DNA of 52,543 bases from Candidatus Endomicrobium neocapritermitis (lineage in GTDB: Bacteria; Elusimicrobiota; Endomicrobiia; Endomicrobiales; Endomicrobiaceae), in the NCBI GenBank assembly GCA_009778325.1, contig WRJZ01000037.1, positions 1-52,543 of the forward strand, given 5' to 3'. The position numbers and the translations under genes are program-made. Below the pieces are notes generated by a model that saw only the letters and a list, made by a program, of their open reading frames with translations, did no database searches and was not told the origin of the DNA. Of the stretch, positions 1 to 46,796 are shown piece by piece; position 1 is the stretch's first letter; every line of letters begins with the position of its first letter.

Positions 1-89
1 AGACCAGACCAGACCAGACCAGACCAGACCAGACCAGACCAGACCAGACCAGACCAGACCAGACCAGACCAGACCAGACCAGACCAGAC
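1..89. repeat. (AGACC)n pentanucleotide tandem repeat
   Basis: About 17.8 perfect copies of AGACC run from the window edge to base 89, so the tract may extend further left. Read on the + strand it contains no stop in any frame; every frame encodes the same cycle R-P-D-Q-T. Directly after it, frame 0 meets TAA at 90-92 and frame 1 meets TAA at 94-96, while frame 2 stays open into the giant gene. A unit length that is not a multiple of three makes copy-number changes frame-shifting. An assembly artefact at a contig end is the main alternative. Confidence 0.95.
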
Positions 90-3000
90 TAACTAATAAA
101 CACTCCCTTAAATGCATTCTTAAAAGAAGGTGTGTAACACCTTCTTTTAAGAAAGTAGTATCACTTATAACTCTTTTTTGTTTTCTTACAGGTATTACTC
201 CGGTAAACGGTTATGCTCATGCATCCGTTGCCGGAGTTTCTTCTAATGACAAAACTTTCCTGCAGGATACGTTTTTGCAAAGCGCACACGGAAAAATAAC
301 CGAGCAAACGTTTTTTGACAGTCCCGAAATAATCATAAACATACAAGATCTGCACTGTAATCCAGAGGTGCAAAGAAACATAGCCTCCCTTATAGAGGAA
401 ATCAACGACAAATACGGAATAAGCGAATTATATGTCGAAGGCGCTTACGATAATGTAAATACAGGCTGGATTGATAAGGTTGAGGATAAAAACGACAGGC
501 AGGAACTGCTGGATGTTTTGCTCAATTCCGGAAGGCTTACCGGAGCGGAATATTACTCCGCTTTAAACGGTAAATACGATATTATAAAAGGCATAGAAGA
601 TGAAAGGATACACAAACAAAACATAATAAGGTTAAACGGGATATTATCCAAACAGGAATATTATAAAGAAAAATTAAAAGATTTGGATAATGACCTCGTT
701 TTGATACAAGCGAAGTATCTCGGTTCTAAAAACAGGCGTTTTGACAGGATTATAAAAGAATACAGAAGCGGGCAAATCAGTACGGATAAATATTACGCGC
801 TGTTAAAAAAATATGCAAAAAGCGTTAAAGAGGTTAATTTACGGAAATATCCGAATATATCGTCATACATAAAAATAAACGAATTAAGAGGAAAATTAAA
901 CCATCATAAAATACAAAGGCAGATGGGAATATTTATAAATGTATTAAAAGAAAAGCTGCCGTATTCGGTTTATTCGGATATTTACGCAAAGACTAATAGT
1001 TTTACGAATTTTAATGATTTATGTTTTTACGCGGATCAAATAGTAAAGAAATATGGAATAGAATTAGGAAAAGGTTTATCTGATTTGAATTTGTTTTTTG
1101 AATATAAGCGATTGGAAAACGCAATAAATGTGAAGGAAATACTGGAAGAAGAAAATAATCTTTCGCAGGATATAAGGATAGCGTTTTCGAAAGACGTAGA
1201 TGAGATAGAAACGGCGTTTATATCGTATTTTTATGAATATTTTAAAGAATATCTGACAACTTCATTAACGGCGGAGAATTACAAATATTTTGTTAAAAAA
1301 ATCGATGATTTTAAATATTTGTGGGATAAATATAATTATGAAAACGGATTGAAAGAGCTGGAAAGCGATTTTGCCGTATTGGATGAATATTACAGAGTAA
1401 ACAATGAAAGAGATGAAATATTTATACGGCAATTACGAATAAACGGCGAAGTTCAGAAGCTCGGCAGCTCAGAAGTTCGGAAACAACCGTTGAATCTTTC
1501 TCAGGCTGAAATTCAAGACAAATTAAAAAGCTCTAGAATTAAGGTAGTGATAACAGGAGGATTTCACTCTGACGGGTTGAAAGAACTGCTTAAACAGCGT
1601 AAAATCTCATGTATTACCGTGATGCCTAATGTTACCGGTATTTCGGATAATCAAAAGATATATGAGGAGCTTGTTAAAAAGCAGGCTGGCCGTCAGGGTG
1701 GAGTTTGGAGTGTTGAGAGTGGAGTGAAAGACGATGGATTGCTTCATCGTGATGACGCTGGTCCTGTCATTGCGAGCCCTGAAAGGGCGCGGCAATCCAG
1801 TGCTGTTGCTGTTAACTCCACACTTTCTTCAGTCGTTGCCAAGCTTCCGAGCTTCCGAGCTTCTGAGCTTCGCCGTTCAACGTTGGCATTAACTCTTGGT
1901 TCGACGGATGCCCAAATAAAATATGAAAGCGGCAGATATTTGGTAAACATTAACGGTGAAATATTAGAAATATATAAAAATGAAACTACAAATAAATTTG
2001 GAATAAAAAATTTCCCCGAAAATACTGCCGTCCCAAACTCCGCGCACGCTTCGTTAATAACGCAAAACGTAAAAGAAAACATACTTTTAAATATAGAAAG
2101 AATAAGAAATTTGTCGTCCCCTGCGGGAAGCGCTGAGCTTATATACTGGTTTGTAAAAGAAATATCAAAAAGCGGCGCGTTAAACCGAGTTATGCTTGGG
2201 GACGGATTAATATGGAAAATAGCAAGTAATCCGGAAGTTCAGCAGGCTATAAAACAAAATGAAAATTTAACGTTAAATGAATTAAGTATATTTCCCGATC
2301 CTCTAAAGGAAATAATAGCAAACCACGCTGTGTTGAAAGAAAAATTCAAAGATAACCCCATAATAAACGCAGTATTGAATACGCCGGAGTTTATAATAAT
2401 TCTTTCAATAGTATCGGATAAATTTAAAATACAAAATTATCTTACTCCGACGTTTAACGAAGTAAAAAAATACTTCGATATGCTGGTAAAAGCTGCGACA
2501 GTCAGAACAAAAATAAAAGCTGAGAAAGTTACAGGTTATAAAGAATACGGCGATGAAGTAATAAATTATTATCAGCAAAGGCTGAAACTGCTGCAGGCAG
2601 TGCAAACATTGGACGCAGAGCATTATAAAGAGGCTTATGATTCGATATTAAAATCCGCGCAAACCGTCAAGAGCGCGTTTTTAGATAAAAAGCTAGATTT
2701 ACAATTATTGATGGAAGTCTTTACAAGAGAGGGAACGCTTAACCAATACGCTATACCGGACTTGTCAGGCATTCCAAACATAGGGCCGTGGTATGAAATA
2801 ATAAGTTCTGCGGGAGAAGAGTTTGACAAAAAATATGATGATTGGATAAGAGAATCCGTAGATATGCTTATATCGGCTTTTCCGGCAAATCAAAGGGCTA
2901 ATGCGGCAGCCGTAAGAGACGAACTTATAAAAAACACAAAACCTCACAGTTTTTCTTCACTGATTTGGTCTCCGGACACGGCAAGGGAAATATTTTCTCA

Positions 3001-6000
3001 AACTCAAACATTTCCGCAGAACTATCAGGAAACGGTTAAAGATTTTTTAATGTGGTTAACTCTTTCATCCGATTTTGAAAAATACAAGAATTACGGTTAT
3101 ACAGATACAGGTAAAGACAGAAAAGTTTATATGCATGCGCTAGAAGATAAAGATTTGTTTAAAGCTATATATGTTCACGAACTTATACACGCTTTGGCAG
3201 GTATGGGAATAATAGATATTCCATCTCATATAGAAGTATTGACACAAATTGCCAGCACATTGCTCTATGACTTTCAAAATAAAACATTTGAACTGGGAGA
3301 AAAAAACGCAGGAAAAATAGAAGGAGAACTTAGTTCGGAAAAATTAGATAAATTTGTATATGATTTGATATCGGAAAACTGTGAGGAATTCGGGCATAAG
3401 TCTGTGCGTGACGCGTTGGCATGGCTTAACTCTATTAAGTCCGGGAATGATGCCGTAATTGAAAAGTATCAAAGAGTTAAGGGAGAAATAATTGCTGGGA
3501 TATTATGGGACAGAAATAAAAATATTTCAGACGAAACTAAACGGAAAGAAAAATCTTTGTCTGACGCTTCGCAATATGGAGATACGGTATTGGCAAAAGA
3601 ACTGAGCTCTGCGCCAAAGTTTTCTCCGGATATCGAGAAACGGCAAAGAATAGTGAACGAAATCCAGCAGCTTTTCAGGAATATGACAGGCAATGAGAAT
3701 TTTACGCTTAAAGAAAGAGAAAGAGTTGCCGATAATGCCGAAAGCAGAGAACTTTTTACTATTTCAGATGACGGCAATACGATATATTACGATCCTCTGC
3801 TGCTTGATTATCCGGATGAAGAAGCGGCAAAAGCATTGTTTTTGGAGCAAATATCCGTAGTGCGTTTTTCAAAACCGGTAAAAGTTGAAAAAGGATACGA
3901 TACTTCCAGATTTTATCTATTAATGTCAACGTTAGAGCTTATAAGAACAAGAAAAGATAATTTTAAAGGAAAAGAAGTAAACGACAACTTAAGAAAAGTA
4001 TTGTATCCAAACCCGGATTCCGAGTCAGCAAAACGGATAATGCAGGAAAAATCACTTTTTGCGCAGTACATAGAAGCCTTGCTTTTTATAGCAAGAACGG
4101 GAAGAAAAGAAGACCCGCGAATAGAGAATGCATTGGTAAAAAAAGCGTTAAAAGATACGGAGAAAGCCGTAGAAAAAATATCTAATTTAGGAATTATTAG
4201 GGAAGGAATTGAGCAACAGGTATACGAAACGGCAAAAACAGAAATTTGGCCGAAACTTGCGGAAATAATAGCGAAATCCGAAGAATATTTAAAACAGAAA
4301 AAGTTGGAAGAACTGGCAAGAAAACGAGCGGAACAAGAGCGAATACAAAAAAATATAGAGCAGATGCTTGAAAATATGCGAAAACAAAAAGAGCAGGGTG
4401 ATGATCAATCCGGCCAACAGCAACAGGGACAGCAGGGGCAATCAGGCCAGCAGCAAGGGCAACCTGGAGGACAAAGTCAGATTACGCCCGGCAAAGGAAA
4501 AGGCCAAGCGCCAACGCAGCAGCAGCTAAAAGAATTTCAGAAAATGCTGGAAAATATGAACGAAGACCAAAAGCGCGAATTTGACGATTTAATGAAAGAC
4601 TTAATGCGTGATGAAACGGACAATATGCTGAACCAGCAGCAAGGCGGATATTCACAAGCCGGCCAGCAGGCGTCGGCAAACGAGAAACAAGGCGAACAAT
4701 ACGATAAAATGCAGGGGCAGGCGGATTCCGCGAAAGGCAAAGCAGGGAAACTCGAACAAACTCAAGCCGATATTGCCCAGACCATAGAGCAATTACAGCA
4801 GGAAATAAAAAAGCTTGAAGAATCGGCAAAAGATATAGAATCGAAAAGCGGAGCAAGCAGCGATATGAGCCAGGACACAGGCCGTCTTGAGGAATTGTCG
4901 CAGAAACTGCAGTCGCAAGGCGAAGAACTGAGTCAGGAAGTGTCTGATGTGAGAAGCGGGACGCAAAAATTAAAACAGCATGGAAGTCAGTTAGGCAGCG
5001 GGGAGACGGAATCGGCAAAAGGATTACAATCATCTTCGGACGATTTATATCAAAAAGGCAAACAGTTGGATAAAGGAGTAAAAGAGTTTGAAGAAAAGAT
5101 GAAAGAATTGCAGGACAAGATCCAAAAGCTTCAGGAGCTCTTGAATGAAAATAGAAATATTCCTACGCAAAGAAATCAGGCTGAAGAAGTTGAAAAAGGC
5201 GCTCAAGGATTGCAGGATAATGTTTCGCAAATACAGCAGTTAAACGAAGATGTCGGCAGTTCTTTGCAAAGCTTGCAGGAACAGCTTGATTCTTATAAAC
5301 AAGAGATAGACCAGCTAAAACAGCAGCTAGGGCAGAAGCAGCAGGACGCATCGCAGGATAAGGCGCAATCCGGTGACTCTTCGCAGCAGAGCGGTGAGCA
5401 GTCTTCTTCGTCTCAAAGCTCGCAGCAGCAAAGCGAGCAGGATTCACAAGAGGCTTCTTCTTCCCAACAAAAGAGTCAGCCTATAAGCAAAGCGGCAAAA
5501 GAAGCCGCGCAGCAATTTAAAAATTTTGCTAATAAGCCAAACAATGCCAAAGGAGGCGGAGCCAAAGTTAATGTAAAAGACAGAACCGCCGAAATACGGC
5601 AATCGTCTTTGAGCGCCGCTGAATTCGATGAAATGTTAAAGGTTTTGGAACCTTTCAGGCAGCCGGGATATGAGCTTGCGCAGGATATAAAAAGAGAGAT
5701 GCAAAAGACGATAGACAATGAATATCTGGAAGGAATGGACAGCGGTGAATTGAGCGATGATTTTTCGCGCCTTGCAGACGGGAAAATATTTAAAAAAATG
5801 CTTATCAGAGGCAGCGGCGAGCACAGAGTAATGATAGTTATAGACGGCAGCGGTTCTATGGGCACCGTTGATGTCGCAAGCGACGGCAAATTAATAGATA
5901 ACGGCAGCAGTATGTACGGCACAATGAAAATGCTTATTACGGTTCTTCTTGCATTGAAAGAAATAGACGGCATAGAAATAGGCGTAATGATGTACGGAGA

Positions 6001-9000
6001 TATAGCAAATCTTTTAGATATTACAAAATCCAAAGACATGTCCGACGAAGCAATTTACCGTATGTTTAAAGCGCTTAAAAACGGCGGTGGCGGGACTGAT
6101 GACGTTTCGACATTGCGGTCTGCCGTTGAAAGAATATCAGATGGCGTTGAAGGAATTTTTAAGAGTATATTGCATATAAGCGACGGCGATGGATACGGTA
6201 AACATGCCGTTGAAGGATTTTATAGAGAAAACGCGGAAAGCGGGGTAAAGTTTGTCAGTTATGGAATAGGAGAAGGCACATCGAAATTAGAATATGCTTA
6301 TACTCCTTCAGCAGAAATATTCGCGATGTATCCGCAAGGGCTTGCTCCTTCAGCCAAAACAGTTACAAAAGCCGAAGATTTACTCGGGGAAACGACGAAA
6401 TTTATAGAGGATATGTTTAGGGAAGAACGTGATGAGACGATGACTTTCGGCAAAAATATTGTTTTTGTTCTTGGAGAGGTGTTGACGGCGGCTAAAAGCA
6501 TATGGACAGGTTATGTAAAAGAGAAATTTGAAGAATATTTGAAATCTAAAGGAATTAAAAGCGAAGGTTCGTTTTTTCATTACAATATATTAGGATATAG
6601 CCAAAAACTTGTTAAATTTTTCTTTGAAGGAAGACACGGCAACTGGCTGTTAAGCGATGCGGAGATAAAGAGTAAATACGTCAAATATGTGCCATCCGCA
6701 GAGATTCAGAAAAAGGGCGGATACGTTATTAAAGTAAGTAAAGCGCCTTTGGATTTAACCGCTCCCGGTGAAGATAATTATGTATTTGCAACAGTAAATT
6801 TAAATGAGCAAAGCGGCGAAAAAGAAATAATAATACACGAGTCGGTTTTGAAATGGATAAAAAATAACGGTCCTCCGGCCGGGTATAGAGCGGAAACTTT
6901 TATAGAAGAACAGCTTATAAAGCATGAGCTTGAAGAATATGAATACGTAACAAACGGAAAAGGGACTTACGAGGATTTTCATAAACGTACCGAAAATGAA
7001 TATAAAGCATTATTTGAACTTGGCGACGCTATAGCAAAAAGCGATGATTTAAGCGGCAATATAACAAATTTAGGCTATGTAAACAGAAACGGAAAAAAAT
7101 ATCTAAGAATTAAAAATGCGGATCAGAAAAAGCCTGTAGAAGTTGCTGTTGACGATAGATTGGATTCTTCAAACAGAGTAAAACTTTACGTAAAAGAAAA
7201 CGGCGAATGGAAAGAGTTTATGCCAGGCGAAAGCGGCATAATTCCTGATTTAATAGGTTATCGCGTAGGAAATTCAAACAGAATAAACGCATATGAATTT
7301 ACAGCGGGAAACAGGGATTTATTAAAGAGAATGCTTACGGCTTACGCAAAGCCGGCAAGTGACGCAAGAAATACAAATATCTGGCTTGAAGGACAAAAAG
7401 GCAGCGGCAAAAACGCGCTGTCTTTTGTTTTTGCGGGACTTGTAGGCATACCGATGCGTTTTGTAAGTCTGCATGCAAATACTACGCAAAAAGATATAAG
7501 CGAAAGGGTAGTGCTTACGCAGGGAGCGCAGGAAATAGAAATAACCTTGGAAAACGGGCAAAAAGTAAAAGCGCAAATACCTGCTGGCATTACCAAACAT
7601 GTATTTTCCGAAATATATCATGCGGCGCAAAAAGGGGAGCTGGTAATAATAGACGAAGTCGATAAAGTAAAACTGGAAGGAGTGATGTCAGCGTTAAATA
7701 CGGTTTTAACAAGGGAAAGAATAAGCGGATTAACTTATGATGATAAATTCAGAGTAATAATGCTGAGCAATGACCATTTAACTGGCGACGTAAGCGGAAA
7801 CGATTTGAACAGAAAAAACCGCGATTTGCTTAGCAGAATGACAAAAATCAAAGTTGGTTACCCTGAATTCGGCGAAGAATACGAAAGAATAATGGATAGC
7901 ATATACGGCGATGTGGAAGACGGAAGCGAACAAAAGGAAATGCTGTCAAATGTAATGACCTTTCTTATTACTTTGGCAGGGTGGTCCAGAAACAGCCAAG
8001 GCAGGGATATTGAAATAGAAGGCGGCAAAAAAATAAAATTTCCAAAACTTTCAAAATCTATATCTCCAAGGACAATAATAAAGATAGCAAAGCATCTGCA
8101 TCCTAATAATTATTTCAACGATATGGAATATTTAGGTTCATTGATTGATTCGGCTTTCGGAGTTGACGCATTAAGCAATAATGAAAGGCAGCAATTTAAT
8201 ACATTTTTATCACAATTTGGAAAGTTTAAAAGATTTAATCAAGAACGAAGATTTAAGTTGGGTTATAAGAAACTTGAAGATGCAGGATTTGAATATATTA
8301 TTAAAAACTCAGCTGTTTACGCCGTGTTAGGCAAGGGCGCATGGGCAGTGGAAGTAAAAACGGCAATAGAGCCTGCAAAGATAGAAGAAGCAAGAAAACG
8401 CTTAAAATACCAATATCAGTTGCCTGGCAATATGCTTTTATTTTGGCAATGGATGAAAGATATAAATCTGGGTGAAAATCTTATGGTTTTAGGGGTGCCT
8501 GGTACCGGAAAAACAGTGCTTACAAATTATTTTCTTAATACGGTTTTAGGATTAGACGCGCAGTCAATGCAGATGAATGTTCAGTCTTCGGGAGCGGATT
8601 TAATTGGCGAATGGGGGCTTGTAAACGGAATACAGGTATTTAAGGAAAGCGAGTTAGTGCAGGCAATGAGGGAAGGCAAGCCGATAATAATAGACGAAGC
8701 AGATAAACCGAGAGATGAAACGGCATTAGCGGTATTAAACAATATTCTGCAGGATGGTTTTATAGTGCTGCCTGAAGACGGCAAAAGAAGCGAAGAAGAG
8801 AGAACGGTATATGCCAAAGAAGGATTTTTTGTGGTGACTGCTGGTAATTTGCATAATAAAGGCGGCACGGCGTCAACAAGAATAAGCGGCGAGGTAATGG
8901 ACAGGCACAGCGTGTATATAATAGAACCGCTGCCGGAGACGCAGGCAATTGAAATGCTAAAACGCTATGCAATAGACAATGGTTATGAAGAGAAAATACC

Positions 9001-12000
9001 GGAAGGGTTTATAGAAGACTTGGCTGCTTTTCATTATAAGATAATGGAACACGGCAGTATTAAAGAAAAACCAAGTATGAGAACGCTTGAAAAGACAATA
9101 GGAACATTAGCCCGCGATCCGTCAAGATTTAAGGATGTGCTAAGCGTTTATATGGAAGGTTTTTCCGTTTCAAATAAAAAAATCAAAGAATGGATTTCTG
9201 AAACTGCTAAAAAATATTTAGTCTGCGGGACTTTCACATGTAATAAAGAAAGTATAGATAAATTTGAAAAAATATTTTTAGATATATTTTCGCATGACGG
9301 AAACATAAAAGGTACGCAAAAAATGACGCTGGCAATGGATGATTATAAAAAATATGAAAGTATTATATATAATCCTGCACTCGGCTTCCTTGATAAAATT
9401 GAAAAAGAAGGTTATCCCGATAGAGAAAGAATTAATAGAATACGCTATTTTTTGCACGAAGTGCGTTTCGGTCGGTTTTCCGATGTAGAAACAGCGACAG
9501 AATTCAAGAAAAGAGGTGAAGATTGGAATAGTTTGCTTTCAAAAGATTTCAAGGATCATTTAAAATTAAAACAACATGTAGAAAATTTGGTTCTCAATAT
9601 GAACGATTTAATAAAGGATCTTAAAAATTACGCAAATAATTTAAATGGTGTTTCGGGTTACATAGCTGTTGTAGAACGTTTTGAAGAGCAGAGAGAAGTT
9701 TTTAATATTAAAAATAAAATTTTTGAGATGATGGCCGGAAATACATGGGGTGGAGTTTCTAATATGAAAGATATTATGCTCGGACTCAGCGTATCTCCCA
9801 GCCCCAACGGCCTTGAAGAGAAAGATGAATTTGGTGAAGAGTTAAAAAAATATCTTAAATCCGGCTTGAATAAGTCTAAAAGTTTAGAAAAAATGATAGA
9901 AGAGTATTTTAATGCATATGATGTTGATACTGTAGCGAAGCTCTCGCTAGAAATTTACAATGAAATAGCAACCTTGCATATAGAACCTCATAAAAGAGCA
10001 AAACTTCTTGGCATCAGAGATAGAATTATTGAGATAAAAGGTAAAGATATTACCAACGATCAAATATTTGGATCAGTTGTAGATATATATAGTGATATTT
10101 TTAAAAATAGTCATGGCTCTGGCATGCCCGTAACTTTATATAATCTCGTAAAAGACAGTGAAGGATTCAATCTACTATCTTTGTATAAGGGTGATGAGGT
10201 AGAATTTAAAGAAGAATACGCAAAATTTATTGGTAATAAAAAAAGACACGAATGGGAAGCAGTTTTATTAGAGTTTGCGGATAAAATAACAGAATTATAT
10301 GGCATTCCCACCGCCCCAGCAACTAAAAAGATATTTGTGGTTGCAGCCGAAACTAATATTAATAACATGGTTATTTCCGAAACAGACGGTAAAAAATATT
10401 TAAACATAAACGGCGTATCCGCACCTATAGGTGATCGTAAAAATAAAAACGACTCCGATCCACGCAGGGTAAAACTGTTTTTAAGCAGTGAAGATAATGC
10501 TGAAGAAGTTTATCCGGAGAATTTAACCGAGATCCCAGAAACGATATATTATCAAATAGGCAACGGTGAAAAAATTCCTTTCACTTTTACGGATGGAAAT
10601 AAAGATTTATTAAAACGCATGCTTACAACTTACGGCAAACCCGACAGTGATGCCAGAAATACAAACTTATGGCTTGAAGGGCAAAAAGGAAGCGGCAAAA
10701 ACGCATTGTCTTATGTTTTTGCCGGGTTGCTCGGAGTGCCGATGCGTTATGTGAATTTGCACGCCAATACCACGCAAAAAGACATAAGCGAAAGAACGGT
10801 TTTGGCTAAAGGATATAAAAAAGTAAAAGCCGTAACTCCGGACGGTAAAGAGATAGAAGTTGAGATACCGTCTAATGTAACGATAAAACAGTTTTCGGAA
10901 ATATACGAAGCCGCCAAAAACGGCGAGCTTGTAATAATAGACGAAGTTGACAAGGTAAAACTTGACGGAGTATTGTCAGCGTTAAATACTGTGCTTACAA
11001 GGGACAATATAAAAGGTTTGAAATACGATTCGAGATTCAGAGTAATAGTATTAAGCAATGACCACCAAACAAAAGACGTAAGCGGAAAAGATTTAAATGT
11101 TAAAGCAAGAGATTTTATAAGCAGGCTTACAAAAATAGAAGTGCCGTATCCGTCAAAAGAAGAAGAAAAACAAAGAGTTATGGGCAGCGTTTTCGGGGAC
11201 TTGCAAAAAGACGGCGCGAAATATAAGAATTTTGAAGATATAATAACTTCTATTGTTGATATCGCAGGCGAGACAAGAAATAATAAAAAGTTCAGCAGAC
11301 CTTTGTCTCCGAGAGGAATATTTAGAATAGCGAAACATTTAAAAGCGCTCCCTAAAGATAAAAAATATTTACGCGGTTTAATAAACGCGTCTTACGGAGC
11401 AGATACATTGTCCGCAAACGAACAAAAAGAGTTTATAAAGATATTAAATTCATATCTTAAAGAAGATGTGCAAGCATCCAATGAAAGTTTGGAAGACATC
11501 GATTTGGACGACATCAATAAAGAATACATCCAGAGGGTTAAAGAGTTTGCTACAAATTATAACAATTTTCAATCCCAAAACGGCGATATTCAATTGACTA
11601 TAGAGAACAATTCTATTCAGTTTGAGATATATGATTTTATTTTAGAGTCTTATGATATTTTGGAGATATTAGAGTCAGATATAGAGTCGCTGACAGATAA
11701 AATGATTCATCACTATACCGGCAAAGAACAAAGAAAAATTAGAACAATGATGGGAAGTCTATCTAAGTTGGCAAGCGAATATAAAGATCAAAAATCTAAA
11801 AATGAAGCTGGAAAGAGTAGAAGAGAGAAAAAAAGTCTGACAGGATATAAAGCTCAAATGTCCCAAGATATTGAAGGTAGTGATTTTGAATATTCGGTTA
11901 GTAAAGGGATAGTTTATGTAAGTTTAGGCAAAGGCGATTCTAAAGTTAAGATACCGACAAAATTTAAAAATACAAAAGAAGCTAAAGCAAATTTAAAAAA

Positions 12001-15000
12001 TCAATATCATATATCTGCAAATATGGTGATGTTCTGGCAATGGATGAAGGATATAAAACTTAGCAATCACATAATGGTACTGGGAGTGCCGGCGACAGGC
12101 AAAACCGTGCTTACAGAGTATTTGCTTAATGATGTCTTAGGCTATAATGCCGATAGGCAGACTTTATTTGTGCAGTCCGGCGGAACGGATTTACTGGGTG
12201 AATGGTCGATGGACGGAGAACAAATTTTTAAGCCGAGTTTAGTCGTGGAAGCGATGATAGCGGGAAAACCGGTAATAATAGACGAAGCGGATAAGCCGCT
12301 TGACGAAACCGCGCTTGCCGCGTTAAATAATATTTTAGAGTCGGGCTTTGCAACTCTGCCAGACGGAACGGTTGTCCATGCTAAAAAAGGATTTTTCATA
12401 GTAACCGCAGGAAATCTGTCCGATAAAGGCGGCACGGCGTCAACAAGAATCAGCGGCGAAGTAATGGACAGGCACAGCGTTTATGTGCTTGACGCATTGT
12501 CCACGGAAGAGACGGCAGAAATGCTGGAACGTTACGCCAAAGCCAATAATTACAAAATGCCAGAAGGATTTATAGAAGATTTGGTAAATTTTCATTACGC
12601 GATACTGAAAGACGGAAGTATTAAAGAAAAACCCAATATGAGAACGCTTGAAAAAACTATCGGCACATTATTCCGTGGTCCGTCAAGGTTTGATAATGCT
12701 GATAATATTGCCGGCGTTTATCTTGAAGGGTTTTCAGTTTCAAATAAAAAAACCAAAGAGCGGATTGTAAAAATTGCCGGAAACTATTTAGATGGGGCTT
12801 GGGGGACCTTCACATATAACAAAGAAGAGATAGAAAAAGCTGATGAGGAAATTTTTAACATATTAAAAACTTTCTATTCAGAATATCCTAGCAAATTTAA
12901 TGAACTAGATTTGAAACTCTATTGGGCGCAGTTCGCAAATGAAAGAAGGTGGACACTTAACATAATTATATCCAAATTCGAACAATTTGAGAAATTGATA
13001 CGCCAATTGTCTAATACTTCCTATGCGAATACGAAAAGTATAATTCAAAAAATGGATAAAATAAAAGAAATCGTTGAAAAAGCCGAAAGTGATCGGAAAT
13101 ATGCAAAGATAATATGGGAGCCTGAAAAAGAGATAACGAGTGTAGATGAAGCAAATAGAAGAATAGAAGAAATTTTAAAAATGGATTCCAATGATGATTC
13201 TGAACTACTTGTAACTTCAGATGATAGTGATGTTCACATTTTTGTTAAGGAAGTTCAAAATATTTTATCGCAATTGCATAAGTCATTTAAGGAATATTCT
13301 GATAAAGCAGGAAGCGGTACGCAGTTTAAGAATGGCGTACTTACTATAGAAGAAGAAAACGCAAAAAGATATATAAAAGACTTTATAGATCAATGGAATA
13401 ACGGGGCAGATATAAACAGGGACAATTTATTTCAGATAATAAAAAGTCAGGTGCCAAGCTTTGTTAAGAAGAATGCGCCAATTTCTATTGAGGTTGTGCC
13501 AACGGATGAATTTCGTGATATGCATAACAAAGTATTACAGTTTGAATTAAATTACAGCGTGCTTACAGGAAAAGCAAGAAATAATGAAATTTATAAAAGT
13601 TTTTCTCAAATATTTGATCAAATAGCACAGGATAGGAGTATTCAAGACAAAAGTACCGATTTAGATATATTAGACAAATTTTGTGAAGACGTAATTACAA
13701 AAATAAATAAACTCATAGCGCCATTTGAAGAACATGAAAAAGCACAACAGCAGCTGTTAGAACAAAAAAAGATGCAGGAAAATTTAAATAATGGCAAAAT
13801 AGAAATTTTATTTGGGAATAACCAAATTAAAATAGGCGATGTTTCAGCGCATATAGACAGCCGCGTAGGCGATGAGCGCAGGGTCAAACTGTTTTTAAGC
13901 GGCGAAGATAACGCGCAAGAAGTATTTCCGCAGAAATTAACTGAAATTCCCGAAACAATATATTATCAAATCGGAGACGGAGAAAAAACGCCGTTTACTT
14001 TTACGGCAGGCAATAAAAGTTTATTAAAACGTATGCTTGCAACTTACGGCAAACCGGAAAGCGACGCAAGAAATACAAACCTTTGGCTTGAAGGACAGAT
14101 GGGAAGCGGTAAAAACGCTTTATCTTTTGTTTTTGCAGGGCTTGTCGGCATTCCTATGCGTTTTGTAAGTTTGCACGCGAATACCACTCAAAAAGACATA
14201 AGCGAAAGAACGGTAATAGACACAGCCGAGCAAATTATTTCCGTAACAGCATCTAACGGCAAAAAAATTAAGGTAAAAATACCGGTAACAATTACAAAAA
14301 AACAATTTTCTGAGATTTATGAGGCAGCCCAAAAAGGCCAGCTTGTAATAATAGACGAAGTTGATAAGGTTAAACTAGACGGAGTGTTATCGGCATTAAA
14401 TACAGTTCTTACAAGAGACAGAATATCAGGATTAAAATACGATCCGCGTTTCAGGGTAATAGTGTTAAGCAATGACCACCAAAAAAGAGACGTAAGCGGA
14501 AAAGATTTGAATATCAGGGCAAGAGATTTTATAAGCAGGCTTACAAAAATAGAAGTGCCGTATCCTGAAGAAGAAGAAGAAAGACAAATGGTAATGGGCA
14601 GCGTTTTTGGGGATTTGGACCCAGGTACCCCGAAATACAATGACGCATATTCAATAGTTTGCGACATAGTAGCGGTTGCCAAGCAAATAAGAAATAATCC
14701 AATATTGACAAGACCGCTGTCGCCCAGAAGCATTTTTAAAATAGCAAGGCAATTAAAAGCGTTCCCGAAAGACAGGGAATACTTGTATAGTGTGATAAAC
14801 GCGTCATACGGAGTAGAAACATTATCAGTAAATGAACAAAAAGAATTTAAAAAAGCATTATGGTTCGTATTGTACGCAAAAGGATTAAACAACGAATATC
14901 CGAAAGATTTTCTTATGGGATACGGCAAACCCGAAGAAGTCAAATTTGAATTTATTAAAGCCTCTGACCAGCGGGCTGTCATTGCGGGCTCCGACCCGCA

Positions 15001-18000
15001 ATCTGATTTTATCTACGTAAGTTTAGGAAAAGGCGATTACAACGTAACAATCAGGACAAAATTTAAAAGTACAGAAGAAGCGCAAGCGAGTTTAAATGAC
15101 CAATACCATATACCTGCAAATATGCTTTTATTCTGGCAATGGATGAAAAATATTTATCTCAGCGATAATATAATGGTATTAGGCGTGCCCGGAACCGGGA
15201 AAACAGTTCTGACAGGTTATCTGCTTAATGATGTATTGGGAATAGAAACGGATTTAATGCAGATGAATGTTCAGTCCTCGGGAACTGATTTGTTCGGCGA
15301 GTGGGGGATGGTAAACGGGAGGATGGTGTTTAAAGAAAGTTTAGTTATAAAAGCGATGCAGGCAGGCAAACCCGTAATAATAGATGAAGTTGACAAACCG
15401 CAGGACGAAACAGCGCTTGCGGCGCTAAATAACATTTTACAGTATGGCTTTGTAACTCTTCCCGACGGCAGAACGATTTACGCTAAAAAAGGATTTTTTA
15501 TAGTATGCACGGGCAATTTAGCGAACAAAGGCGGAACAGCGTCAACAAGAATCAGCGGTGAAGTAATGAACCGCCACAGCGTCTACATAGTTGAAGGCTT
15601 GCCTAAAGACCAGGCCACGGAGATGCTCAAAAGATATAGGAATAATAATTATAATATTAAGGATGTTCCGGACGAATTTATAGAAGCTCTTGTAGATTTT
15701 CATGAAAAAGTGACAAATGACCCGAGCCTGCCGTATCAGCCCAATATGAGAACGCTGGAAAAAACAATCGGAACGGCCGCGTCAGACCCGTCAAGATATT
15801 TAAATATAGCTGAAGTATATCTTGAGGGTTTCTCGTTAAGAGAGCCGACTCAGGAATTACGCGTACACCAGATAGCTAAAGAACAAGCCGGCAAAAAAGA
15901 ATCTTTTGACGTATTATCAAAAAGATATGTGTTATCGTCAGAAAGTATTGACCTTACCGCAGACATATTAAAAAAATTAAACGATTTTAGAGAAAAATTT
16001 GATGAAAGCGAACACCACAGAGTTTTCACTGATTCTGAGTTTTTAGGATTGTTAAAACAAGTTTCGCGAAATAATGAAGATGTTTTAGGCATTTATGATT
16101 ATGCCGTGAAAACTTTGCAATTGCAAGACTCTGATACTGAAGCTTTAAAAAATATAGAAAATCTATATTTCAAAATGTTCTTGGATGAAATTTTAAAATA
16201 TGAAATTAAAGATAAATCCGACAGGAAAAAAATATTAGAAATCGCCGGATTATTAGGTCCAATCTTGAGTTTTGAAACCTTAAGAGGATATCAATTTATA
16301 CTGAAATATTATAATCAGAAAAATCTGGATTTAATAGAAAAGCTAAGAGAATTTAATGAAAATAAAGGACATCTTTCTCACTATACAAACAACAAGAGCG
16401 TTTTTGAAAATAAGGAATTTATGGAAATAGTAAAATGGATTCTGTCAAATAATAATCCCAATGTTTTGGATATTTATGAATACATTATCGCGGAAATGAT
16501 TGATGAAAACGGCAATGTTAAAGGTAACGGAAACAGGAATGCACTAGAGAAAATTTACTTTAATACATTTAAAGATGAAATTTTAGAGCATGTAATTAAA
16601 AGTAAGTCAGACATAGAAAAAATAAAACAATTGGCACTGATATTTGGATGGCTCCAAGATTTTCAAGATTTAAAAAGCTATCAATCCTTACTGCAATATT
16701 ATTCCGAAAAGAAACATAATTTATTAAAAAAGTTAGAGCGATTTAATCTTGAATGTGAGAGATTCATGATTAATTTAGCCGAAGCGGAAAACATTACTTT
16801 CTGGAGTTGTGGTCTTTATCATGAGCCATTTATAGAAATAGCAAACTGGGCTCTTTCAGATAATAACAATATTTTTAAGCAGACTCTCCTAGGCAACAGC
16901 CGATTTCAAGACATCGATAGTTATCGTAATATTTCTAATAGAGGTAAGTCTATCCTAAAAAAATTTATTAACTCAAATAATGACATTTTAAGCATTTACG
17001 AATGCATAGATAGTATGATATACCAAGAATCCGTGCCTACTGATATGAGAGGAGATTTGGACTATAGAGCAATGTTAAGAAAAATGGACAAAGATAGAGA
17101 AACTTTATTCATCAATATATTTTTAGACGAAATTTTAGAACATAAAATTGAAAATGAGTCAGACAGAAAAAAAATAAAAGAGTTTATAGAAAAAAAATTA
17201 TCCGGAGGAGAATCTATAACCTTTGAAACGGTAGAAACGGAGATTTTGTCGAAAAATTGGGAAGAAGCGGCAATACTTCCTGAAAATATGCCAAAAGTAA
17301 ACGTTATGTTAAACGAAGGGAAAAGTCCTTTTAGAACTGCTTTGGCTATCGGCTCTGCTATGGAATATGCAAAATCTTTCTTTAATCCTGTAGCATTTGT
17401 GAAAGCCCATAAAAATAAATCCGGCGCATATAAAGTTGTGTTTGGCGGAATTTTTGCAGGCATTTTTGCAGGCGTATTAACCGTTGTTTTAAGCGGCATA
17501 AGTCTGCCTGCCGCTGCAATGGCGCTTACGGCTTATCTACTTGCGGGTTCGGCGGCAAATATTACAATTCACACGTATATAGATTACCGCTATATTAAAA
17601 ATTCGCAAATTACGCAAGCCATACAAAAGTTCGGAGCGGCAGCGATTGACGAAAACGGTAATGTGCGCACAAACATTTATATCTCGGATATGCCGAAAAA
17701 TCCGCAAGAACTCGGGCTTAGAAATCTTAGATATAAAATTGACGGAAAATGCGTTTGGGCAAGCTCAAAGCAGGGAGCTCTTGTATTGTATAGCGAAGCC
17801 GACAGTGAAAAAATAGAGCAGGAATTAAATTCCATGTTAAGCAGCCGCGGAAAAATAAAAGCTTCGGAAAAACTCAAAAACAAATTTAAAAAGCTGTTTG
17901 CCGAAGTCGGCGTAAATGCGGATTTTGAAAATATAAAACCTGCAGCCTCTATAGATTATAAAGGTTTTAGTATTGCCGATATTGCTTCTGCTTCGCCTGA

Positions 18001-18085: not shown

Positions 18086-18143
18086 CAAACATAATTTTTT
18101 GGAAAATTGGTTACTCGCTATTCACCGAGTATGTTTAGATGCT

Positions 18144-18196
18144 TTTCTGTACAAATATGCAATACCATTGCATATTTGTACAGAAAGTAATATAAT
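18144..18196 (+). promoter_or_regulatory. Promoter with overlapping 20-bp perfect palindrome
   Basis: TTGCAT (18168-18173), 17 bp, TATAAT (18191-18196) is a good sigma70-type promoter. A perfect inverted repeat, TTTCTGTACAAATATGCAAT (18144-18163) and its complement (18167-18186) around a 3-nt loop, covers the -35 box and stops just before the -10 box. This is where a repressor would block polymerase. The regulator is not identified. Confidence 0.75.
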
Positions 18197-18224
18197 ATGC
18201 GCAATCATACCAAAGGAGATTTGC

Positions 18225-19433
18225 GTGAATAAAAAAAGAACATTGGAAAGTACTCTGTTGGAAACTTCAAAATCTTTCAAAGTTGTGCTTGTTACGGGGC
18301 CGCGCCAAGTCGGCAAAACTACGTTGATGCAGACTGCATCGGCTAAAAACAGAAAATATATTACGCTTGACGATAAAGAAGTATTGTTGCAGGCAAAAAC
18401 AGACCCGAAAGCTTTTTTGGCATTGTATAACCTGCCGATATTTATAGATGAAATCCAGTATGCGCCTGAGCTTTTCAGCTATATAAAAATGCTTGTTGAC
18501 AGTTCGAATAAGCGCGGAACGGTTTGGCTGAGCGGTTCGCAGGCCTTTGACTTGATGCAGGGTGTTACGGAAAGCTTAGCCGGAAGAGTAGGTATACTTG
18601 ATATGTTGGGATTTTCTATATACGAAATTGAGAACAAGGGAAAACTGCAAAAACCGTTTTTACCTAAACAAGACAGAAAAAACATATTAGCTAACAAAAC
18701 TCCAAAAAATACTTTCAAAATAATTTGGCAGGGCAGTTTTCCTGACGCTGTGTCTAAAAATGAGAAAGACAGACAAAGGTTTTATGATTCTTATATCAGA
18801 ACGTATATGGAAAGAGACGTACGTAAAATCATAAATATAAGCGATGAAGTTGCTTTTATAAAATTTTTGAAAGTTTCGGCGGCAAGGACGGGACAAGAAT
18901 TAAACCTTACGGATATAGCAAAAGACGTTGACATATCTCCAAATACCGCTAAAAACTGGCTGTCAATTTTAAGGATGTCAGGACTTGTGTATTTGCTGCA
19001 GCCGTATTTTAAAAACGTAACTAAAAGGCTTGTCAAAACCCCGAAACTATATTGGACTGATACGGGGCTTGCGGCATATCTTGCAGGCTGGACTACGGCA
19101 GAGTCTTTGGAAACAGGCATTTCGTCCGGAGCGTTTTTTGAAACTTTTGTCATTAGCGAAGTTATAAAATCATATTACAACAACGGATACAATCCAACCT
19201 TGTATTATTTTAGGGACAACCATGGCAACGAAATAGATTTGCTTATAGAGCAAGATAACAAGTTCTATCCTATAGAAATTAAAAAAACGTCAACGCCGAG
19301 AAGTGCGGACATTAAAGCTTTTAACAATTTCGCCAAAATAGAAAAATTAGGTTATGGGAATCTTATTTGTTTAACTGACAAACAACAGCCATTATCAGCC
19401 GGCGCGACTGCAATATCAATTTGGGATATTTAA
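18225..19433 (+). CDS. AAA_14 / DUF4143 ATPase (first copy)
   Basis: I choose GTG 18225 because AAGGAGA at 18213-18219 precedes it by 5 bases and the promoter -10 at 18191 lies between it and any earlier start; this gives 402 aa, normal for the family. Walker A G-P-R-Q-V-G-K-T is at 25-32, Walker B reads I-F-I-D-E-I-Q-Y-A-P, and sensor-1-like W-L-S-G-S-Q follows. A winged-helix segment (L-T-D-I-A-K-D-V-D-I-S-P-N-T-A) leads into DUF4143, which ends with E-I-D-L-L-I-E ... P-I-E-I-K-K-T, a PD-(D/E)XK-like pattern. Known for the family: P-loop ATPases of unsettled function, often single genes that move between genomes. The neighbour at 19888 is a paralogue. Confidence 0.9.
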   Translation: MNKKRTLESTLLETSKSFKVVLVTGPRQVGKTTLMQTASAKNRKYITLDDKEVLLQAKTDPKAFLALYNLPIFIDEIQYAPELFSYIKMLVDSSNKRGTVWLSGSQAFDLMQGVTESLAGRVGILDMLGFSIYEIENKGKLQKPFLPKQDRKNILANKTPKNTFKIIWQGSFPDAVSKNEKDRQRFYDSYIRTYMERDVRKIINISDEVAFIKFLKVSAARTGQELNLTDIAKDVDISPNTAKNWLSILRMSGLVYLLQPYFKNVTKRLVKTPKLYWTDTGLAAYLAGWTTAESLETGISSGAFFETFVISEVIKSYYNNGYNPTLYYFRDNHGNEIDLLIEQDNKFYPIEIKKTSTPRSADIKAFNNFAKIEKLGYGNLICLTDKQQPLSAGATAISIWDI

Positions 19434-19462
19434 CTGCCAGTTCAGTTAATCTTTTAGCCATT

Positions 19463-19732
19463 AGAGTGTGTTCACACATATTACGCACATGCGTTTGGTC
19501 AAAACAAGTCCAAATACAAGGCGCGATGACGAAGCAATAGCGAGACTATTGATAGGAGTCGCAACGCCGCAGTTGGGCTTGTTTTGACCAAACCCTACGG
19601 GCTGCGGCAGCTTTTTGGTAAATTTTGCTTTTTTTGCTTCGCAGATATGTCTCTGTATCTTTGGCGCAAAAAAAGCAAAATTTACTCAAAAATTCTAGCA
19701 GCGCATGCGCATAATATGTGTGAACACATTCT
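19463..19732. repeat. 270-bp element of nested inverted repeats
   Basis: Most of the 454-bp gap 19434-19887 is this element. Outer arms of 31 bp (19463-19493 and 19702-19732) differ at about three positions. Inside are a perfect 15-bp pair (19494-19508 / 19578-19592, TTTGGTCAAAACAAG) and a perfect 20-bp pair (19618-19637 / 19666-19685, GTAAATTTTGC...). The segment 19515-19573 is GC-richer. No transposase is encoded. It looks like a non-autonomous, MITE-like repeat; I recall similar sequences from other genomes but cannot verify it here. Confidence 0.75.
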
Positions 19733-19800
19733 AAAAACCCAATCCATAGGTAAAGTCAAAAAATTTCCTCTGATAGCTCTGTCCTGCAAGTGTTTTTTAT

Positions 19801-19860
19801 GATAATCTTACATTAATATGCTAGATTATCATTGACTTTTGCTTGACATAATTATATAAT
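19801..19860 (+). promoter_or_regulatory. Promoter of the second DUF4143 gene
   Basis: TTGACT (19832-19837), 17 bp, TATAAT (19855-19860). A second TTGACA at 19843 is too close to the -10 to serve. Just upstream, GATAATCT (19801-19808) and AGATTATC (19823-19830) form an 8-bp dyad with a 14-bp spacer, a possible operator that differs from the palindrome of the first copy. Confidence 0.75.
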
Positions 19861-19887
19861 ATTGTGAGAAAGTTATTGGAGGAAACA

Positions 19888-21141
19888 ATGCTTAAAAGAA
19901 CAATTTCAGACACAATATTAAAAATTTCTTCCGCTTGGCCCGTATTGCTTTTGAGCGGACCCAGGCAGGTCGGGAAATCGAGCGTCTTAAACATGATTAA
20001 AGAAAAGGGACGCAAATATGTTTCCCTTGATGATATTGCCGTCCGTGGTCTTGCTTTAAACGATCCTCAGGCTTTTTTGCAAAAATATGCGCCGCCCGTT
20101 ATCATTGATGAGATACAATATGCTCCTAATCTTTTTACCTATATAAAGATATGGGTTGACGAGCATCGTTACAAGCATAAATCCAAAGGTTCCAAAACAA
20201 CTAATCCCGCCGGAGCATTTTGGCTTACAGGTTCACAGAAGTTCTCTCTTATGAAAGGAGTGCAAGAAAGCCTTGCCGGACGTATAGCGATTATTGATTT
20301 ATTGGGGCTCTCTTATCAAGAGATAACAGGCAATCCAAACAAATCTAAACCGTTCTGGCCGGATGAAGTCAATATTAATGAGAGAATAAAAAAACGCACT
20401 ATTATAGATGTTTATAGAGATATTTGGAATGGTTCTTTCCCGGAATTTATAACCAATCCTGCCATGGGACGCGATAAATTTTTCAGTTCATACATGCAAA
20501 CCTACATAGAACGCGATGTACAAGATTATCAAGGAACAACAAATGAATTAAAATTTTACAAATTTGTACGTGCAGTAGCCGTAAGAACCGGCAACTTAAT
20601 AAATTATGAGGATTTAGCGCGCGATTGCGATATTGACCGCCGCACGGCGCAAAAATGGATTGATACTTTGCAGGCGTCCGGTTTGGTATATCTTTTAGCG
20701 CCGTATTCTGCCAACCTTACAAAACGCATAATAAAAACGCCAAAGATATATTTTCTTGATACGGGTTTAGCTTGTTTTCTCGCTAATATAGACTCTCCGG
20801 AAGCATTGGAAGCAAGTTATCTAAACGGATCAATGCTTGAAACTTATGCCATTTGTGAAATTTTAAAAGGTTTCTGGCACAATGGAGAAGATACGCGCAA
20901 ACTGTACTTCTACCGTGATTCCAACAAGAAAGAAATTGATTTGGTTTTAGAAAAAAATATGACTCTGTATCCTGTAGAAATCAAAAAAACAACCTCGCCG
21001 GACAGCAGTGATTATGCAAACCTAAGTATTATAGACGGTTTGAAGAAACAAGTCGGTAAAGGCGCTATACTTTGCCTAAGTCCGAATATAATGCCTGTTC
21101 CTAAAAACAATGCAATCATTGTGCCCATTTGGAATATATAA
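19888..21141 (+). CDS. AAA_14 / DUF4143 ATPase (second copy)
   Basis: ATG 19888 is chosen because TTGGAGGA (19877-19884) lies just upstream; an earlier in-frame GTG at 19864 sits almost on the -10 box. The product is 417 aa. Walker A G-P-R-Q-V-G-K-S is at 24-31, Walker B is V-I-I-D-E-I-Q-Y-A-P, then W-L-T-G-S-Q. A winged helix and DUF4143 follow, ending E-I-D-L-V-L-E ... P-V-E-I-K-K-T. Same architecture as the gene at 18225 but clearly diverged, so an old duplication or separate acquisitions. It has its own promoter and is not in an operon with the first copy. Function is not established. Confidence 0.9.
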   Translation: MLKRTISDTILKISSAWPVLLLSGPRQVGKSSVLNMIKEKGRKYVSLDDIAVRGLALNDPQAFLQKYAPPVIIDEIQYAPNLFTYIKIWVDEHRYKHKSKGSKTTNPAGAFWLTGSQKFSLMKGVQESLAGRIAIIDLLGLSYQEITGNPNKSKPFWPDEVNINERIKKRTIIDVYRDIWNGSFPEFITNPAMGRDKFFSSYMQTYIERDVQDYQGTTNELKFYKFVRAVAVRTGNLINYEDLARDCDIDRRTAQKWIDTLQASGLVYLLAPYSANLTKRIIKTPKIYFLDTGLACFLANIDSPEALEASYLNGSMLETYAICEILKGFWHNGEDTRKLYFYRDSNKKEIDLVLEKNMTLYPVEIKKTTSPDSSDYANLSIIDGLKKQVGKGAILCLSPNIMPVPKNNAIIVPIWNI

Positions 21142-34946: not shown

Positions 34947-37900
34947 ATGAGCGAAAATAAATCACAACAAGGCTTGGATTTAGGTTTATTTATTAACGAC
35001 CAGTACGTGACCGTAAAAAAAATCGGTCAGGGCGGGATGGGCGTCGTATGGCAGGCTTACGATTTCAGCCTGAGAAATTTTATAGCCGTCAAAGAACTCC
35101 TGAGCGAAGTTTCAGAGCCTAAGTTTGTTGAAATGTTTTATAAAGAAGCTCTTATCGCCAAGAATATTATTCATGATAATATTGTCAGAGTCCAGCACTT
35201 TTGGAAAGGCAGCAACGGTTCGTTTTATATTTCTATGGACTTTGTCAGAGGCGTTGACCTTGAAGACCTTATAAAAAGATGTAATGAATTAAAAATAAAA
35301 ATTCCCTGGGAGCTTTCCGTCCTTATATGCATAAGCATGCTCAAAGCGATCGATTACGCGAACAGAGTGGCGAGAGATTCCATAACCGGAAAACCTTACG
35401 GAATAGTATACCGCGATATATCCCCGGGGAACGTTTTAATATCTTTTGACGGAAACGTTAAGCTCAGCGATTTCGGCATAGCCAAAACCGCCGACGAAAT
35501 AAATGAAGGCATAAAGCAGAATGTTGTTACCGGGAAATATCCTTACATGTCTCCCGAACAAATAAAAGGCATTTCGGATATTGACCATCGCGCGGATGTT
35601 TTTTCAATCGGCGTGGTTTTTTATGAAATGCTGACAGGCAAACAGCTGTATTCCGGAGATAATTCCGAAATCAAATCGCAGGTTTTAAATCAAAAATTTG
35701 ATACGGATTTGCTCAGCGGCATTCAGCTTCCTTACGAAATCGGCGAAATTCTCTCTAAGTCTCTTGAAAAAGACAGAGATACAAGATATGAGCGAGCCAT
35801 CGAGATGTATCGCGATTTAAGAAGACTTCTTAAAGGCGTTGAAACCGAAGAGCTTGCCGTTGATTTGGCGTCATTTCTCTCAAGAGTAATGGAAAAAGAG
35901 CTTAAAAATTCGGATGAAACGATAAATCTTGTTAAAGCGCTGGACAGGCAGGAAATAAAAAACAATACGGCGATACCGAGAATCCTTTGCACGGACTTTA
36001 TAGTAGGCGAATCTTCCGACCCTGCGGCTGTTTCTCCGGCGTCCGCGCAGCCGGCTGCTAATGCCGCGCCGCAGACGCCTGCGTCAGGCGCGCCTGAAAC
36101 CGGAAATGTTCCGGCCAGGTCTTTCGCTCCGCCTCAGAATACTTCGGCGCAGCAGCAAAATGCCGCTTTTACGCCTCCTCCGATGCCGGCTCCGCAGCAG
36201 TCTCAGGCGGAAGCAAAAGGCAAAACCGTTTTTGAAGAAGTCGGCGACTGGCTTGTTACAAAATTCAAAGAAATGAAAAGCAGAATAATAAAGATTATTA
36301 TTGCCGTTATTTTGGCAATTCTGCTGTTTTTCGGTTTAGATATTTTTATGCAAATAACGCCGTTCGGCAAAAGTATATATTCATGGCTTTATCCGCCTGA
36401 CGTCATAATTACCACTGTTCCCGCAGGGGCAACCGTAAGCATGAAAACAAAAGAAGGTCAGGTAATTCTTCAAAACGCGAATTCTTCCGCGCCTATACCT
36501 TTAAGAAAAGTACAGCCTCAGACATATATAGTAACCGCTTTGAAAGAAGGTTTCAGGCCAGTGCAAAGAGTTGTCAGCATTGAAGGAAGGACAAGCAGAT
36601 CAAACAGAGACAGAAGCGAAAAAATAGAAATAATGTTTGACTTTATGCTTGAGGTTACTTCCGAGCCTACCGGAGCCGACGTTTATATTGACGGAAATAA
36701 ATTCGGCGTAACTCCCTGCAAGATACAGCTGATGGCAGGCGAACACACTGTAAGACTTGCATTGGCAGGGTTTGAAGATCTGGGCTCAAAAGCGAAAGAA
36801 GACAGAGACGGAAGGTGTAATATAGATTTTTCAAAATCAACCATGGAAGAAATGTTCGCGGGCGTAGATAAACGTTTCTGGCATACAGAACTTAGAAATA
36901 TTGACGGTGAAAATGTTTTCAGCATAAGAGGCCACATGTTTAAGAAGTTCACGTTTACGTCCGTTCCTTCCGGAATGATGGTTCACATCGAGGGAGAAGA
37001 GAAGCCAAGGGGGCATACTCCTTTAACCGTAAACATGAAAGCGGGAAATCACAAAGTAAGAATGCTTGACCCGGAAGCAAGATACGGCGAATCTATTAAC
37101 AACATCTCTGTTACCGCTACTTCGGAATCCGAGCTTAATGTGCACATGAATAAGCGGATTACTTTCAGGGTCAGGGCAAGAGATAATCCTTCGGAATCGT
37201 TTATTGCAAAACTGACAATAAGCGGAAAAGAATTCAGTACTACGAAAAATGTCGGCACCGGCAGCCCCATAACAGTGGCTTTGCCCAGCGGCAAGTATGA
37301 TTTCACGTTTTCGGCCGATGAATTTAAAACTTATACAATGAGAGGCGTTGATATAGCAAACATAAGCAGTGTAACCGCGGAAATGGAATATGCGAAAGTT
37401 CCGCTTAAAATAAAGGTCGTATCGATGAGCGGCGATAATGAAATTCCTTTGGAAAGCGCGTATATATGGCTTGATAATAAACTTGTCGGCAAAACCGATG
37501 CCGAAGGCGCTTGGGCAAAAGATGTTAGCCCCGGCAAGGTTAAAGGTAAAATCGTTGTAAAAGATTATGACGAGCAGGTGTTTGAGGCGAACGTTTCTCC
37601 GTCAAAAGGCGGCACGGTAAAAATTATTATGGTGCCTGTGGTGGTGGTTGAAGATCCGTTGCGTGAAAACATTATTCGCGAAAACACTATTAAGGAATTA
37701 AGAGAAAAATTCAATTCGAAAGAAGTTTCTGCTCTTGCTAAGGTTAAAATTAATGTTAATGATGACAATGTCTTGACAGGATACCTTGAAAAAAATAATT
37801 GGAATGTTCAGAATGCGTATGATGATATAATTAAAAACATACAAAAGAAGGATGATGGACGTCCGACTCTGCCAGAGCCGAAGCCGCCAAAACCGCCGAA

Positions 37901-38018: not shown

Positions 38019-38084
38019 CGGCAATTACTAATTACTAATTACGAATCAAAGGCAGCGGCGATATAGTTAGATAAGAGAGGTATC

Positions 38085-40906: not shown

Positions 40907-40907
40907 T

Positions 40908-41945: not shown

Positions 41946-41953
41946 GGGAAAAA

Positions 41954-43003: not shown

Positions 43004-43006
43004 TAA

Positions 43007-43140: not shown

Positions 43141-43154
43141 AAAAGGGGAAACAA

Positions 43155-46792: not shown

Positions 46793-46796
46793 AATC

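Follow-up and report, generated by a model that had tools for sequence, protein, structure and literature searches.

A Giant Endomicrobium Protein with Six AAA+ Modules and a VWA Domain: A Probable Single-Chain Relative of the MoxR/VWA Machines

Introduction

Does a single bacterial chain, about 6,000 residues long and with six AAA+ modules and a VWA domain, represent a covalent ATPase ring, and from what did such a chain arise? Eukaryotes have covalent rings of six AAA modules in midasin, dynein and RNF213. The locus that raises this question lies in a 52,543-nucleotide stretch of DNA, here called the window (contig WRJZ01000037.1 of assembly GCA_009778325.1, positions 1-52,543 of the forward strand), from Candidatus Endomicrobium neocapritermitis, a termite-gut bacterium of the Endomicrobia, phylum Elusimicrobiota, whose assembly consists of 54 contigs. 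An earlier note on this DNA had described a midasin-like plan of six AAA+ modules, linker and VWA domain. The GKN motif of some of the modules, the signal peptides, a metallopeptidase-like domain and the relatives with a single module pair were not part of it and are reported here.

Passages on huge proteins in PMC11573180 describe these as frequent in Elusimicrobiota, and the present giant is not among the proteins described in those passages. NCBIfam gave no specific family for the protein. We conclude that the giant protein is real and conserved; the literature searched held no bacterial counterpart of it.

The Giant Gene and Its Start

The giant ORF encodes at least 6027 aa within the window, and its features are listed in Table 1. 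A start at TTG 275, from which the earlier note had counted, was found not to be likely, both because the window opens in the middle of a pentanucleotide array at a contig end and because the signal peptides of the orthologs align to frame residues ~50-74, that is, before TTG 275.

Table 1. Features of the giant gene in the window (nucleotide positions; residues are counted in the open frame)
Feature	Position	Strand	Basis or remark
(AGACC)17.8 pentanucleotide array	1..89	+	Tandem Repeats Finder; in frame (DQTRP)n; contig break
Giant ORF	2..18085	+	6027 codons open in window; 5' end on another contig
Sec-type signal-peptide segment (predicted), residues 50-74 (KKVVSLITLFCFLTGITPVNGYAHA)	149..223	+	Hydrophobic segment; aligns with signal peptides of orthologs
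N-terminal domain (..IQDLHCNPEVQRNI..ITGGFHS..)	299..1681	+	Common to other signal-bearing giants of the phylum
Conserved domain with gluzincin-like HExxH...E (HELIH 1059-1063, E1078)	2552..4267	+	8/8 invariant
Q/S/K-rich low-complexity and coiled-coil linker	4319..5566	+	Sequence; solely weak coiled-coil-type matches
VWA domain, complete MIDAS	5819..6364	+	VWA_2; invariant residues; Foldseek best to Rea1/MDN1 MIDAS
AAA+ module A1 (GQKGSGKN)	7253..8209	+	AAA_5; module HMM
AAA+ module B1 (GVPGTGKT)	8357..9232	+	AAA_5; module HMM
AAA+ module A2 (GQKGSGKN)	10544..11455	+	AAA_5; module HMM
AAA+ module B2 (GVPATGKT)	11960..12808	+	AAA_5; module HMM
AAA+ module A3 (GQMGSGKN)	13958..14869	+	AAA_5; module HMM
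AAA+ module B3 (GVPGTGKT)	15056..15958	+	AAA_5; module HMM
C-terminal hydrophobic hairpin	17435..17539	+	Hydropathy scan

Both AGACC arrays of this genome were located at contig ends, one at the start of the window contig (C37) and the other at the end of contig C17 (L086:3372-3456), where an ORF beginning MKNTNYKSKF... runs into the array in the DQTRP frame, the same frame as in the window gene. The two contigs are very probably neighbors, and if they adjoin, the array lies inside the first codons of the giant gene. Gain or loss of one 5-bp unit would then shift the frame, so that phase-variable expression of the giant gene via pentanucleotide arrays in its first codons is possible. The genome of Candidatus Endomicrobium embiratermitis contains an (AAGCC)n array right after the signal peptide (L027:1585-1670), the sole array in that genome that matched the pattern. 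In another relative, bin Th196P4bin33 (Th196), (AGACC)n arrays are a repeat element family: they occur at several sites, some of them ending contigs (L087-L091) and some sitting behind short hairpin units (GGGACTTTGTCCC).

The gene on C17 that is probably located just upstream of the window gene (L086:1-3264) encodes another giant with a C-terminal membrane hairpin like that of the window protein. Directly downstream of the giant gene, two adjoining genes for AAA_14/DUF4143 ATPases were found (18099-21141). Further along the window (34947-50328) there is a cluster encoding a PEGA-domain Ser/Thr kinase, an FHA/FG-GAP protein, a PP2C phosphatase and a TPR protein with a signal peptide, and the product of the gene at 39731-40906 has a FlgD_ig/Por_Secre_tail-like end.

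Six AAA+ Modules of Two Types

A profile search of the genome with PF07728 (AAA_5) gave six matches in the giant ORF of 38-67 bits each, all above the curated cut-off of 22 bits and exactly at the positions where six AAA+ modules had been proposed. Walker A motifs were found at frame residues 2464, 2831, 3560, 4028, 4698, and 5061, in agreement with the positions counted earlier from TTG 275 (2373, 2740, 3469, 3937, 4607, and 4970) after correction for an offset of 91 residues. The modules span residues 2418-5319 and, as the suggested repeat-pair structure implied, are three copies of an A-B pair in the order A-B-A-B-A-B, the pairs being separated by long and variable linkers of ~380-440 aa. 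An insert between A2 and B2 (window residues 3808-3954) recurs in other giants of the same genome with 33-39% identity (L034, L035).

The motifs had been described as intact throughout. This holds for the Walker A motif of every B module (GKT), and does not hold for that of the three A modules (GxxGSGKN), all of which have GKN instead of GK[S/T]. Asparagine at the last Walker A position of the A modules is a family-wide trait that includes distant members (GDKSTGKN, GHKSTGKN, GDMGTGKN, GPAAGGKN). The S/T at this position normally helps to coordinate Mg, and nucleotide handling in the A modules may therefore differ. The Walker B motif (IIDE) was present in all six modules, as claimed before, together with the sensor 1 N, the arginine-finger R and the sensor 2 R. 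These three residues, the Walker A lysine and the Walker B DE are invariant family-wide, in A and B modules alike. Comparison with the orthologous genes of bin Cu122P5bin43 gave dN/dS values of 0.08-0.17 for each of the six modules, that is, purifying selection on all of them, which argues that none of the six is decaying.

Relatives and Origin of the Three Pairs

A modules were detected in 12 of the 341 Elusimicrobiota genomes searched. Besides the window genome, the three-pair form was found in three other termite-gut Endomicrobia: the complete six-module layout was present in Candidatus Endomicrobium macrotermitis (5192-aa frame) and in E. embiratermitis (6090-aa frame), and bin Cu122P5bin43 contained it in fragments alone, one with A1-B1-A2 and one with B2-A3-B3. 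Th196 contained the end of a B module followed by an A-B pair, and hence at least two pairs, with an N-terminal part including the VWA domain on another contig. A single pair was found in seven of the 12 genomes. One of these single-pair relatives has the pair and the VWA domain fused with beta-propellers, and in genome G313 a VWA gene (1030-aa frame, MIDAS-like motif) and an A-B gene (1332-aa frame, ankyrin repeats) are separate and adjoin on the same strand. A scan of 84,980 species genomes for the B module, which reaches close relatives only, returned loci from Elusimicrobiota only. No relative of the A module was found in the viral contigs scanned, and a viral origin was rejected on this basis. 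An assignment to a defence system was likewise dropped, as PADLOC gave weak matches at P-loop level only.

A chimeric or wrongly repeated contig might be suspected, given that the contig starts at a tandem repeat and that the genome is split into 54 contigs. The likelihood of such an artefact is next to negligible, because the same layout is present in other, separately assembled genomes and because the paralogous modules of the window differ by ~40%, each of them being matched by an ortholog in another species.

A tree of the A and B modules of the family, midasin AAA1-AAA4, CobS and other AAA_5 modules of the phylum placed all A modules in one clade (support 100/99) and all B modules in another (100/98), with midasin AAA1-AAA4 outside both; outgroup branches in this tree are long, and their positions are not to be trusted. 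The 12 A modules of the three-pair proteins formed one clade (100/100) that excluded Th196, the single-pair forms and midasin. Within it the A1 modules of the four species clustered together, as did the B1 and the B3 modules in the B clade, and the grouping of A2, A3, and B2 was less firm. Judged from these trees, the six modules are recent paralogs of two types, and the simplest history would be triplication of an A-B pair inside the Endomicrobia before the four species split. Part of the duplication may be older, since Th196 has at least two pairs; the B-module tree does not fix its place. The single-pair relatives thus explain the origin of the three-pair form. With the triplication placed inside the Endomicrobia and midasin outside, the six-module plan of midasin would have arisen separately, which is the convergent origin that the earlier note had suspected.

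The VWA Domain and Comparison with Known Machines

The Pfam profile VWA_2 matched residues 1943-2062 with 26.3 bits, slightly below its curated cut-off of 27. The MIDAS residues were identified as D1948-x-S1950-x-S1952, T2032, and D2061, with no variation in DxSxS, T or D among five homologs; this and the profile match agree with the complete MIDAS VWA domain that had been recognized on the same chain. The low-complexity linker reported in front of it was also seen, as a Q/S/K-rich region with a coiled-coil stretch. The VWA region (residues ~1940-2121) precedes the AAA modules, and the permuted domain order described earlier is therefore correct. In a predicted structure of this region (pLDDT 61), the six best Foldseek matches were MIDAS domains of Rea1/MDN1, ahead of BatB and NorD.

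Searched against the PDB, the B-module profile matched midasin first, with a whole-chain E-value of 2.8e-35 that sums several midasin domains and so overstates the similarity per module (best single module, 34 bits), followed by NorQ and CbbQ at ~20 bits. The A-module profile matched midasin and CobS, both weakly. The preference for midasin should not be overread, since CobS was the first match when the query was one B sequence taken from a single-pair relative.

A model of A1-B1-A2 (L022; pLDDT 64, pTM 0.50) displayed, with modest confidence and without ring geometry, AAA+ folds and a helix-2 beta-hairpin insert in each of the three modules, the local confidence of the insert being low in A and moderate in B modules. 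Its top Foldseek matches were dynein motor domains, aligned over ~1330 columns at a TM of only ~0.3 and an rmsd of ~22 A. AAA+ proteins of the MoxR clade are characterized by a helix-2 insert in their AAA core (PMC7159879), and the profile matches together with the predicted insert assign the modules to this clade (AAA_5). The AAA_5 and VWA_2 matches support the earlier note in that a bacterial chain has six AAA+ modules, here of the AAA_5/MoxR clade, and a MIDAS VWA domain.

Four MoxR/VWA systems (NorQ-NorD, RavA-ViaA, CbbQ-CbbO, and CobS-CobT) share with the giant an ATPase of the AAA_5/MoxR clade with a helix-2 hairpin (predicted in the giant) and the coupling of this ATPase to a MIDAS VWA domain, which is on the same chain here and in the adjacent gene in G313. 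In these systems a AAA protein with a single module hexamerises and the VWA domain is a separate protein, whereas the giant has two alternating module types, six modules on one chain, a fused VWA domain, a zincin-like domain and a predicted signal peptide. We conclude that the giant is a new form within the MoxR/VWA kind. Six AAA+ modules on one chain are also seen in dynein heavy chain and RNF213, both eukaryotic, but dynein lacks the coupling to a VWA domain and differs from the model in global geometry.

Midasin (Rea1/MDN1), a eukaryotic ribosome-assembly motor whose MIDAS domain binds UBL-domain assembly factors, is the closest in plan, with six AAA_5-type modules, a long linker and a MIDAS VWA domain on one chain. 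In midasin, the AAA ring is followed by the linker and a C-terminal MIDAS domain, whereas in the giant the VWA domain comes before the modules, which are recent triplicates of an A-B pair by the trees, and a predicted signal peptide and an HExxH domain are added; the ribosome-assembly partners of midasin are not expected in bacteria. It is very improbable that the giant is a bacterial descendant or donor of midasin with the six-module ring inherited as such. Midasin is the best solved-structure match of both the B profile and the VWA model, but six recent paralogs of two types, single-pair relatives branching outside the triplication, midasin AAA1-AAA4 outside both clades and a VWA domain ahead of the ring all speak against inheritance. 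From its domain order and the place of its modules in the trees, the giant would not count as a midasin.

A Putative Covalent Ring

The reading we prefer, with a probability of roughly 0.6, is that the giant is a single-chain relative of the MoxR/VWA remodelling machines, in which the pairs form one ring with the VWA domain docked on it and ATP drives remodelling. It builds on what was observed, i.e., the module count, the motif conservation, the selection, the triplication and the genetic coupling to a VWA domain. In the NorQD system the VWA domain docks in the pore of the MoxR hexamer, and the VWA domain of midasin binds the center of its own ring (PMC13036017). Most likely, the three covalently linked A-B pairs would fold into one pseudo-threefold hexameric ring, and the VWA domain of the same chain would dock on it in the manner of NorD on NorQ and of the midasin MIDAS on its own ring; ATP turnover would then pull or twist a substrate held at the MIDAS. 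With six AAA modules and one VWA domain, the chain matches a stoichiometry of one VWA per hexamer, which favors a covalent ring by which the chain's own VWA domain, along with anything bound to it, is twisted or pulled. The ancestral form may have had one A-B pair and one VWA protein, presumably acting as a trimer of pairs, and triplication of the pair in the Endomicrobia would have fixed the ratio of six AAA modules to one VWA domain in one polypeptide.

Against this reading stand the A1-B1-A2 model, in which ring geometry is not reproduced, and the N that replaces the Mg-coordinating S/T in the A modules. Linkers of ~380-440 aa between the pairs do not force one ring. The chain might thus not close a ring alone, its pairs instead joining modules of other chains and giving clustered rings. 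Single-pair relatives must oligomerise in this manner if they are hexameric, and long, variable linkers would permit it, but every complete three-pair sequence has exactly three pairs in a fixed order, and we regard multi-chain rings as unlikely.

Predicted Export and the Metallopeptidase-Like Domain

The start could be read in nine homologous proteins (E. macrotermitis, E. embiratermitis, Th196, G106, G250, G253, G252, and both the VWA and the A-B protein of G313), and every one of them has an N-terminus resembling a Sec-type signal peptide. The hydropathy threshold was passed by six of these nine segments and by residues 50-74 of the window protein; for E. macrotermitis, G253, and G252 the segment was assigned by visual inspection (charge, hydrophobic core, AxA-like end). 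The giant protein is probably exported, to judge from these N-termini; alternatively, the segment could be an uncleaved anchor instead of a cleaved signal. The strangest feature of the family is that a conserved ATPase should carry a predicted signal for leaving the cytoplasm; the ATPases of MoxR/VWA systems are cytoplasmic. No periplasmic AAA+ precedent was found in the literature searched, and we know of no exported AAA+ motor of such kind.

Upstream of the VWA domain lies a domain with a zinc-peptidase motif whose H, E, H and E are invariant in all eight aligned homologs. A weak Peptidase_M78 match was obtained in one of the eight members and none in the others, and a structure-database search found no solved relative. 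The domain thus has the putative zinc site of a gluzincin without the profile or structure of a known peptidase. Other giant proteins in the same genomes also open with the N-terminal domain (residues 100-560), for which the same type of search gave no solved-structure relative. In the orthologs of E. macrotermitis and E. embiratermitis, no C-terminal hydrophobic hairpin was seen.

All eight giant-type proteins with a seen stop (window ORF 2-18085, L027, L028, L029, L030 (5780), L031, L034, and L086) end in two A/S residues (KSA, HSS, CAS, GAA, YAS, SAA, ASA, and KAA), an ending that none of 24 other window genes encodes and that the two shorter G313 proteins lack. It is possibly a C-terminal sorting signal.

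Signal peptides and the HExxH...E domain together suggest work in the cell envelope on protein substrates. That the giant is a AAA+/VWA/metallopeptidase machine with a self-contained six-module ring, exported across the inner membrane and acting outside the cytoplasm, is a tentative proposal. After export the ATPase would be in a place that normally offers no ATP, which speaks against the reading preferred above. A supply of ATP from a flagellate host is unlikely, since E. embiratermitis and E. macrotermitis are members of Endomicrobium, a putatively free-living gut genus, and not of the endosymbiotic Endomicrobiellum (PMC11257099). The giant might also be exported to the envelope with a AAA+ fold that serves as a scaffold or senses nucleotide and is not a motor, the HExxH domain being the working enzyme; the predicted signal peptides on every member with a readable start, including both G313 products, the invariant zincin motif (8/8) and the N for S/T in every A-module Walker A are in line with this. 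We consider it improbable, as a dead scaffold would have no need of the catalytic residues that the B modules keep without variation and under purifying selection.

Implications

Two puzzles are posed by this protein, its single-chain six-AAA architecture and the likely export, as predicted, of an ATPase. If export is confirmed, the question is how such an enzyme can function with little ATP at hand. As for the architecture, the sequence comparisons point to a single chain with six AAA modules and a VWA domain in a bacterium that apparently evolved apart from midasin by the tripling of a two-ATPase unit. Since two-gene, single-pair fused and three-pair forms exist side by side in this bacterial family, the transition from an oligomeric ring to a single-chain one is open to direct test, with the two genes of G313 as a tractable starting point.
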